43,703 nucleotides of DNA from Candidatus Aminicenantota bacterium (GTDB taxonomy: Bacteria; Acidobacteriota; Aminicenantia; Aminicenantales; Aminicenantaceae), in NCBI GenBank assembly GCA_003648765.1, contig QMPV01000005.1, forward strand, positions 1 through 43,703. Reading direction: 5' to 3'. The notes below the pieces were generated by a model. The model ran no database searches, was not told where the DNA came from, and saw nothing but the letters and a program-made list of their open reading frames with translations. Below, piece after piece: positions 6,675 through 9,140 of the stretch. Made by a program: the position numbers and the translations under genes. The stretch's first letter is position 1, and every line of letters begins with the position of its first letter.

Positions 6675-6946
6675 AGGAACGATTGGGGAGCAGGTGTTCA
6701 TTTTTCATCCCTGAACCAATAGGAAAAGTAAGGCTTCTAATTTATAGAAGGAAAAGTCTTTCTATTATCTATGGATCTTGACCCTCCTGTAGACTTTCCC
6801 CTCCAGGCCTCAGCCGGCCGATTAAGAGCCTTTCTATAGGGATCTTGATTCGTTCCACTCAAAGAACAGGAATGAACACCGGACCCAATCGATTGCTCAC
6901 GCTAGATTTTCTGATAACCTCCATTGATTTGGGAAAGGTGAAGATC
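6675..6946. repeat. Upstream copy of a diverged direct repeat flanking the 115-aa gene
   Basis: This segment is collinear with 7480-7675. Shared blocks in the same order are AGGAACGATTG (6675-6685, identical), AGGTGTTCATTTTT (6692-6705, 12 of 14), the AGTCTTTCT block (6755-6763), an AAGAGCCTTTCTATAG..GATCTTG block (6824-6847, 21 of 24) and the best-kept core at 6891-6946 (47 of 56 bases match). It is about 70 bp longer than the other copy because the CTTTCT..GATCTTG block occurs twice (6752-6783 and 6824-6847). The 168 bp before it (6507-6674) and 107 bp after it show nothing else. Confidence 0.75.
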
Positions 6947-7053
6947 GGAGCCCAAAATAAGGAGAACCCTGAGCTATTGATCTTCTGACCATTGACTTTC
7001 TCTTACCACATCCGATAAACTTTTATTGCCATCCAGAAGAAAGGTAAAGTAGG

Positions 7054-7401
7054 GTGACTAAGAAGGAAACTGACGCTATTAAAGAAAAGCTAGATTCTAT
7101 CCTTTTTCCTCGAACCAAAGCCAAAACTTTTAAAATAACCGTTCGCTTCGGCCATCATCTCTCTAATAATTATAAAAAAGCTGTGGAGTTAGCCCAGAAA
7201 AATCCCACCTATCAGGAAGAAGGCCAAGGAGAGTGGAAAAAACACTCGGCCACTTACACACCGGATGAAGTAGAAGAACTATTCCAACTCTTTAATTTGG
7301 TTCATGACTGGGAAGACACTGAAATTCTGGTTAATCATAAAAAAATTCCTTATGGCCACCAACTCTGGTTGCCTTTAATGTGGTTCTACCGCATCAAATA
7401 G
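7054..7401 (+). CDS. Small hypothetical protein between direct repeats
   Basis: 115-aa soluble protein with no signal peptide, membrane segment or cysteine motif. I do not recognise its family. It starts at GTG 7054 behind AAAGGTAAAG. The N-terminus is basic and helical (TKKETDAIKEKLDSIL), followed by a likely beta strand (TFKITVRFG), an amphipathic helix (YKKAVELAQK), an acidic helix (PDEVEELFQLFNLVHDW) and a C-terminus rich in Trp, Tyr and Leu (WLPLMWFYRIK). The domain-like alternation and codon pattern match neighbouring genes, so it is probably real. It stands alone, flanked by direct repeats and by genes on the other strand. Confidence 0.7.
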   Translation: MTKKETDAIKEKLDSILFPRTKAKTFKITVRFGHHLSNNYKKAVELAQKNPTYQEEGQGEWKKHSATYTPDEVEELFQLFNLVHDWEDTEILVNHKKIPYGHQLWLPLMWFYRIK

Positions 7402-7479
7402 TTCGCCTCAGGTTCACTCCACAAATAACCCATAGGTGAGCTGGAGGTGCGGGTACCTACTTTTCCCTTTTGAGGTCAA

Positions 7480-7675
7480 AGGAACGATTGAGACTAGGTT
7501 TTCACTTTTGACCTTTGAATCAAAAGAAAAGTCAATTTTATAAAATGAATAAAGAGTCTTTCTCTAGTGATCTTGCCCCCCTTCCTATCAAAGGTAAAAG
7601 GTGAAGACCCTGACGGATTGGCTGCTCACGCTGGATTCTCTGAGAATTTCCATTGATTTGGGTAAGGTGAAAATC
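7480..7675. repeat. Downstream copy of the diverged direct repeat
   Basis: Counterpart of 6675-6946 in the same orientation: AGGAACGATTG at 7480-7490, AGGTTTTCACTTTT at 7496-7509, the AAGAGTCTTTCTCTAG..GATCTTG block at 7552-7575 and the core at 7620-7675. A further partial unit, GGTGAAGACCGGGCCCTAAAAT at 7707-7728, resembles 6937-6958 beyond the core. With 7402-7479 and 7676-7754, which hold nothing else recognisable, this fills the 353-bp gap before the tnaA stop. The core is open on both strands in one frame, so it may descend from coding sequence, but no domain is recognised. Confidence 0.75.
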
Positions 7676-7754
7676 TGACTCCCCAAGTCTACCCTCAAAG
7701 AAAACAGGTGAAGACCGGGCCCTAAAATTTTCTATAATCTCCTTCCTGCCTCCA

Positions 7755-9140
7755 TCAGGAAATTTCTTCCATCTTAACCGTAAAATGGCGCAGATAAGGA
7801 GCTTGATAGACTATCCGCATTCCCTTGATTGATTCTTTTTTCTCAGCCAAAGAAGCAAACGCCTCGGCAATATAATGTAGATGGGAGAGAGTGTAGACCC
7901 GGCGGGGCACAGCCAAGCGGAGTAATTCCAAACGAGGAAAAACCATTTGACCCGTTTCTTCATCCCGCCGACCGAACATAACTCCACCAATTTCACAAGC
8001 TCGAATGCCTGCTTCCCGGTACAAAGCTACCGATAAAGCCCAACCGGGATATTCTTCCCGCCGTAAATGGGAGAGAAAACGATCAGCCAGCACATAGACA
8101 GCATGGCCGCCCGGCGGTTGATAAATCGGTACACCCTCTTCTTTCAGCAATTCAGCCAGATAATTCACCTGACCTACCCTGTATTCAAGATAATCCTCCT
8201 CAACTCCTTCCCTCAAACCTTGAGCTATGGCTTCCAAGTCCCGCCCAGCCAAACCCCCGTAAGTAGGGAAACCCTCCGAAATAATCAACCGATTTATTAA
8301 TTCAGCCGCCAAATCATCATCATTTAAAGTTATGAAACCACCGATATTCACCAGAGCATCTTTCTTGGCGCTCATGGTGGCTCCATCAGCATAACTGAAC
8401 ATCTCCCGGGCTATCTCTCGCACTGATTTATGCTGATAGCCCGATTCCCTCTGCTGAATGAAATAAGCGTTCTCAGCGAAGCGGCAGGCATCAAAAAATA
8501 AAGGAATTCCATACTTTCGGCAGATCTTACTGACAGCCTTTATATTGGCCATGGAAACTGGTTGACCGCCACCTGAATTATTGGTCACGGTGATCATGAC
8601 TAAAGGCACCTCTTCCTTTCCCTTTTCTCGAAGGAACTCTTCCAAGCGGCCCACATCCATATTTCCCTTAAACAAAGCGGGGCTATCCGGGTCATATGCC
8701 TCCTCCCCCGCTAAATCAACCGCCACTCCACCTCTAACTTCAATGTTAGCCCGGGTGGTATCAAAATGGATATTGTTAGGAATGTGTTTGCCTTCTCTGA
8801 CCACAGCCTCAAAAAGCAATCGCTCGGCAGCTCTTCCCTGATGAGTGGGAATTACATGCTTAAAGCCAAATATCTCAAGAATGGTGGCTTCAAAACGAAA
8901 ATAACTCCGGGAACCGGAATAAGCCTCATCTCCAGTAATCATCCAAGCCCATTGCTGATCGCTCATGGCGGCCGTACCGGAATCGGTTAAAAGATCTATA
9001 AATACTTTCTCAGCCGGCACAGCAAAAATGTTATAGCCGGCCTCCTGGAGAATCTTTTCTCTTTCTTCCCGGGTGGTCAATTTAACTTTTTCTACAGCTT
9101 TTATCTTAAAAGGCTCCAGGGGCATTTTCTTTGGTGACAT
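7755..9140 (-). CDS. tnaA: Tryptophanase (tryptophan indole-lyase)
   Basis: PLP-dependent beta-eliminating lyase, predicted to split L-tryptophan into indole, pyruvate and ammonia. At 461 aa it aligns end to end with tryptophanase and tyrosine phenol-lyase. The PLP lysine is in MSAKKDAL (Lys260). Residues that separate the two activities favour tryptophanase: Asp127 in HFDTTR (Thr124 in tyrosine phenol-lyase), Ile384 in CEIGG where the other enzyme has Arg381, and His452 in LRHFT (Phe448 in the other). ATG 9140 follows GGAGAA. It is the last gene of mtnP-pfkB-tnaA, 32 bp after pfkB; no tnaC-like leader is present. A short stem (7743-7748 with 7756-7761) overlaps the stop without a U tract. 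Confidence 0.9.
   Translation of the reverse strand: MSPKKMPLEPFKIKAVEKVKLTTREEREKILQEAGYNIFAVPAEKVFIDLLTDSGTAAMSDQQWAWMITGDEAYSGSRSYFRFEATILEIFGFKHVIPTHQGRAAERLLFEAVVREGKHIPNNIHFDTTRANIEVRGGVAVDLAGEEAYDPDSPALFKGNMDVGRLEEFLREKGKEEVPLVMITVTNNSGGGQPVSMANIKAVSKICRKYGIPLFFDACRFAENAYFIQQRESGYQHKSVREIAREMFSYADGATMSAKKDALVNIGGFITLNDDDLAAELINRLIISEGFPTYGGLAGRDLEAIAQGLREGVEEDYLEYRVGQVNYLAELLKEEGVPIYQPPGGHAVYVLADRFLSHLRREEYPGWALSVALYREAGIRACEIGGVMFGRRDEETGQMVFPRLELLRLAVPRRVYTLSHLHYIAEAFASLAEKKESIKGMRIVYQAPYLRHFTVKMEEIS

Follow-up and report, generated by a model that had tools for sequence, protein, structure and literature searches.

The window analyzed here is a stretch of 43,703 nucleotides from a Candidatus Aminicenantota bacterium. 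Within it, a gene for a 115-aa protein (7054–7401, plus strand) lies between two repeats. Repeat A (6675–6953, plus strand) occupies the spacer between this gene and the divergent queA gene, and repeat B (7480–7724, plus strand) separates the 115-aa gene from a convergent gene for a beta-eliminating lyase (7755–9140, minus strand). That two collinear copies surround the 115-aa gene, as the original prediction proposed, was borne out at nearly the same positions by a repeat finder and by blastn against the organism's own genome. In the blastn search, A and B were similar from end to end (E = 5e-15): with A (6675–6949) as query, B was found at 74% (E = 5e-15), and no other match was similarly long. 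The similarity is concentrated in 6821–6949 versus 7549–7678 (74%, E = 5e-15), with a weaker left part (E = 0.004). The repeat finder reported direct repeats at 6853–6949/7582–7678 (72%), 6765/6832/7560, 6747/7547, and 6858/7694. Local alignment of A with B scored 62, whereas the best of 500 shuffles reached 22, and the core (6891–6946 versus 7620–7675) is identical at exactly the 47 of 56 positions predicted. One copy had also been described as carrying an internal tandem duplication. There is a modest duplication in A (6752–6781 versus 6824–6848; its score was reached by 2 of 1000 shuffles), but it is weaker than the A/B repeat and consists of two copies with a gap between them, and TRF found no tandem repeats, ruling out a CRISPR or other tandem array.

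Each repeat is a chain of a single ~29-nt arm, consensus TCAAAGGTGAAAGGTGAAGACCTGACCCC, whose first copy is inverted. To score arms, we used a profile (R2) of 45 arms, none taken from the window; its matches within the window fall only on A and B (7588, 7487, 6933, 7695, and 7664). Repeat A is a composite miniature element with three arms: a left, inverted arm (GGGAGCAGGTGTTCATTTTTCATCCCTGA; 6686–6714, minus strand), which has 8/29 mismatches to the consensus and matches R2 weakly (E = 0.38); an interior of ~144 nt; a first direct arm (TCAAAGAACAGGAATGAACACCGGACCC; 6859–6886, plus strand), which pairs with the left arm through GGTGTTCATT/AATGAACACC; a spacer of ~37 nt; and a second, variant direct arm of the TTGATTTG type (TTGATTTGGGAAAGGTGAAGATCGGAGCCC; 6924–6953, plus strand; R2 E = 0.0066), a type that recurs on other contigs. 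Repeat B is organized likewise, but its interior is shorter and an additional arm makes it a four-arm composite. Its left, inverted arm (GAGACTAGGTTTTCACTTTTGACCTTTGA; 7490–7518, minus strand) has 3/22 mismatches to the family motif given below (R2 E = 2.4e-6) and its first direct arm (TCAAAGGTAAAAGGTGAAGACCCTGACGG; 7588–7616, plus strand) has 1/22 (R2 E = 1.9e-6). These are followed by a second direct arm of the TTGATTTG type (7653–7682, plus strand; R2 E = 0.023) and by the extra direct arm (TCAAAGAAAACAGGTGAAGACCGGGCCCTA; 7695–7724, plus strand; R2 E = 0.012; 4/22 mismatches). Besides the arms, A and B have in common the spacer that separates the direct arms and a brief flanking stretch, "aggaacgatt."

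The arm is dispersed through the genome. The shorter own-genome blastn hits of A and B concentrate on a 22-nt motif, TCAAAGGTGAAAGGTGAAGACC. It occurs with at most 3 mismatches at 50 places in the own genome, compared with none for the reversed control, and 49 of the 50 places are intergenic (outside any ORF of 90 aa or longer), in spacers of all gene orientations. With R2, we found at least 138 arm matches in this 2.77-Mb genome (G000), a lower bound since only 150 candidates were scored; 16 and 10 matches in the congeners G002 and G001, respectively; and 0–2 in each of 13 other relatives. All counts come from capped searches. The dispersed copies occur as inverted pairs and clusters. Arms that are close neighbors mostly form inverted pairs, 80–340 nt apart, whose GGTCTTCACC ends point outward. 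An element consists of two inverted ~29-nt arms (GGGGTCAGGTCTTCACCTTTCACCTTTGA ... reverse complement) enclosing 40–250 nt; one class of ~235 nt has common subterminal sequence. Across 67 arms, the consensus reads TCAAAGGTGAAAGGTGAAGACCTGA(C)CCC(AA), and an AATT-like tip seen at several copies may be part of the arm. A and B are best read as worn members of a dispersed, intergenic, non-coding family of miniature mobile elements. Of the options initially considered, a cassette, a decayed duplication, or a family of intergenic elements, it is the last that the evidence favors: at least 138 arm matches, nearly all motif places intergenic, and further composite copies elsewhere. Nor is the arrangement a fixed one without other copies, since copies are dispersed and G002 lacks both A and B.

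Several arms (at L025, L048, L107, and other own-genome loci) continue into a common stretch, TCGTACGTTGAAAATAGATGAGAAT, which is followed by GTGTCCGACACC...GGTGTC-like inverted sequence. This is apparently a third repeat family that adjoins the arms.

A second profile (R1), made from the A/B block 6853–6955/7582–7684, identified a third full composite with the three-arm layout (contig C69, E = 2e-10), along with partial composites on C54 (E = 1e-6) and C1 (E = 1e-5). Since the C69 copy carries the same layout, the spacer that A and B have in common beyond the arms is a mark of a subfamily, and A, B, and the C69 copy form a composite subfamily, distinguished by an additional direct arm ~37 nt downstream. 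How did two members come to flank the same gene? One possibility, which we regard as real but the less probable, is that a single element landed next to the gene and that a local duplication, by recombination or short-range copying, then placed a copy on the other side, in which case mobility would explain the first copy only. Within the genome, A and B match each other far better than they match any other copy (103–105 bits with R1, a value that is partly built into the profile, versus 42 for C69), and they have the flank and the direct-arm spacer in common; as each is the other's nearest kin, one could have arisen by local duplication of the other. However, the independent occurrence of the same composite at C69 makes the spacer a subfamily trait, the interior of A is longer, and B has an extra arm. 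A decayed duplication thus fails as the whole story but may be the origin of the second copy; a single old local duplication as the entire account is ruled out by the dispersed copies and the C69 composite.

In G002, which is ~80% identical in DNA, the lyase gene, the 115-aa gene, and queA follow one another as in G000, and both spacers flanking the 115-aa gene are ~280–320 bases shorter and devoid of any arm. The C69 copy is also missing at the orthologous G002 site, where both flanks are anchored; at the insertion point of A, the left side is poorly anchored in G002. To judge from these alignments, the simplest reading of three copies missing in G002 would be insertion in the G000 lineage, and precise loss of all three in G002 appears less likely.

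The G002 arrangement bears on the idea that A and B are the ends of a mobile cassette with the 115-aa gene as its cargo. Collinear direct repeats do bracket the one gene, and a different inverted-end family brackets the same gene in G001 (see below). Nevertheless, we reject the cassette, which we consider extremely improbable, because G002 keeps the gene between the same neighbors without a repeat on either side. The gene is also conserved across the order (61–86% identity over the homologs compared), and each repeat is in itself a complete inverted-end element. Nor is the 115-aa gene the orphan it had been taken for: a search within this order found close homologs in numerous members of the family as well as the order. 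In the aligned set, which spans 61–86% identity, many residues are invariant, including VNHK-x-x-PY-x-HQLWL-x-LMWF near the C terminus; no relative was found in Pfam or the PDB. On the strength of these comparisons, we regard the gene as vertically inherited within the lineage and not as cargo. It would then be a bystander, next to which A and B probably lie by chance.

The spacers beside the 115-aa gene tolerate insertions, since those of G001 hold another inverted-end family. This second, unrelated family has the ends GGCTTTGTCCCCAAGTGACGGGAA, is often ~320 nt long, and in G001 (contig C200) is found on both sides of the 115-aa gene, at L003:735–1090 and 1985–2165. It has 59 arm matches in G001, of which 15 are perfect, 18 in G000 (for example, at G000:C15:145–465), and none in G002. 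Judged by the 15 perfect arms, this family was perhaps recently active in G001.

Do A and B serve the adjoining genes? Repeat A is located between a candidate queA promoter (6633–6604, minus strand) and a conserved candidate promoter for the 115-aa gene (TTGACT-18-TAAACT, 6992–7021), both of them identified by consensus match only. Since A spares both candidates, A and B probably matter little for local genes, and we found no sign that either serves its neighbors. It is very unlikely that the repeats are conserved regulatory RNA elements, whether cis-acting hairpins or small RNAs, acting on adjacent genes. Their intergenic placement and the folds of A and B, which are somewhat better than those of shuffled sequences (z of about -2.5), would suit such a role, but a search of Rfam gave no match at the gathering threshold (one sub-threshold chance match had E = 0.7), which rules out a known structured RNA; A and B are not conserved at this locus even inside the genus; arms diverge independently of one another; and spacers of every gene orientation host them.

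An isolated arm shows no fold (z = -0.2). When arms pair, folding is weak in A (z = -2.5) and B (z = -2.4) but perfect in a near-perfect 96-nt copy in G001 (z = -10.5). Each arm departs from the consensus at ~3–9 of its 29 positions. Two arms from the same element do not resemble each other more than arms drawn from different elements do (p = 0.69, 28 elements; the arm coordinates of A, C69, and G001 were out of register, and A is among the 28 elements while C69 and G001 are excluded). As the arms within an element are not more alike than random pairs, maintenance of the hairpin is without support, and we rejected selection to keep the arms complementary on the same test. The divergence of the arms looks like neutral decay, not selection for a hairpin.

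What enzyme could have moved these elements? Scanning bacterial and archaeal genomes for the arm gave 11 stretches. One is G001 itself, whose deposited name is Candidatus Aminicenantes bacterium HyVt-101. An arm identical at 29/29 positions (TCAAATGTGAAATGTGAAGACCTGACCCC) is present in Deltaproteobacteria bacterium RBG_13_61_14 (L126), 31 nt away from where a Y1_Tnp gene starts (316 aa; PF01797, E = 6e-13), and an inverted partner arm matching at 26/29 positions (3 mismatches) overlaps the opposite end of the gene. On a verrucomicrobial contig (L123), an arm precedes what appears, as judged by eye, to be the truncated start of a Y1 gene. Related GGGGTCAGGTCTT ends accompany Y1/RAYT genes in the host's own family and order, with single ends at L144, L149, and L161 and matching ends on both sides (GGGGTCAGGTCTTGTT ... 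AACAAGACCTGACCCC) at L151 (G024:C117), in the same bacterial family. From its sequence, L151 is a clean candidate for a TIRtron.

On one side, the only Y1/RAYT-type gene found in G000 (L069:1462–2133, contig C185) carries an end, GGGGACAGTTCACTTATTT, that differs from the arm; the motif upstream of the gene, TGGGGACAGTTCACTTATTTG, is a GGGGWSAS-type end other than the arm. Mobilization by this gene was ruled out, as its visible end motif differs. A Y1 gene with matching ends was not found in G000 (92% complete), and neither G001 nor G002 yielded a Y1 gene above the cut-off. All three are incomplete metagenome assemblies (88–93% complete), and the transposase may have been lost or may have failed to assemble.

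These results also bear on whether the repeats could be a MITE family of a DDE-type insertion sequence, with inverted ends recognized as duplex DNA and no Y1 enzyme involved. The long inverted ends and the length of 80–340 nt would suit MITEs, a single arm lacks the hairpin usually bound by Y1 enzymes, and no fitting Y1 gene was found in the three congeners. However, given that an identical arm flanks the Y1_Tnp gene in L126 and that related GGGGTCAGGTCTT ends occur at Y1 genes in the host's family, we consider this explanation unlikely.

Dispersed and intergenic, with inverted ends, with three copies absent from a sister species, and with an arm identical to the ends of a Y1 (RAYT/TIRYT-type) gene elsewhere, the repeats are best explained as a decayed, genus-expanded population of miniature elements with terminal inverted repeats that was formerly moved by a Y1 transposase, a reading to which we assign a probability of roughly 0.7. 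We infer Y1-mediated copying from the arms common to these elements and Y1 gene ends. A Y1 HuH transposase recognizing the arms would have copied the elements in trans, perhaps acting on single-stranded DNA with the arms paired. Elements would have inserted into the dispensable spacers that flank the 115-aa gene, and the population would now be old and mostly immobile. More tentatively, the three-arm arrangement (inverted arm, direct arm, fixed spacer of ~37 nt, variant direct arm) may have been a Y1-linked class copied as a unit, with the genus having since lost the transposase and the stranded population decaying across sister species; we consider this version possible but doubtful.

How does this family compare with known systems? 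Bacterial MITEs of the RUP, NEMIS, or ERIC type (PMC3733652) are similarly non-coding and gene-adjacent, 70–300 nt long with inverted ends of 15–30 nt, but the arm sequence described here is tied to Y1, not DDE, transposases. Like REPINs and REP-BIME elements (PMC3116915, PMC8049555), the repeats are non-autonomous and intergenic, reach high copy number in one lineage, and form inverted doublets that pair as a long hairpin. However, their arms are ~29 nt long, their interiors are long and variable (40–250 nt), and the arm consensus lacks a GTAG-tagged palindrome. Since a single arm does not form a hairpin, they are not REPs in the strict sense.

The closest likeness is to TIRYTs, or TIRtrons, which are RAYT-like genes with long terminal inverted repeats in place of REPs (PMC3733652). 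The ends of many TIRYTs have the sequence GGGGWSAS, some form dispersed families, dimers, or clusters, and one well-defined group comes from Acidobacteria (PMC3733652); most have been assigned to subclass 2.1 (PMC6006769). A and B had been held to match no known terminal inverted repeat, but their inverted ends are of this described kind. The start of the arm, GGGGTCAG, which is present at the arm tip in G001 and L126, fits GGGGWSAS, as does the tip of the 67-arm consensus, which ends in TGACCCC or close to it (GGGGTCA at the tip). The dispersed copies, inverted pairs, and clusters are also TIRYT-like, as are the identical or related arms flanking Y1_Tnp genes. What differs is that a fitting transposase was not found in the three congener genomes, that there are composites of three and four arms, and that the population, confined to a single genus, has diverged strongly. 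Sister species differ widely in copy number (at least 138, 16, and 10 arm matches), and these unequal numbers, together with the failure to find a matching transposase, make the lineage usable for studying how such repeats persist or decay without their enzyme. From sequence comparison, then, the A/B arm family would be largely explained as a new member, with a composite layout, of the known TIRYT-type repeat families, so that families thus far described in few papers would have a strongly expanded member in uncultured Aminicenantia.
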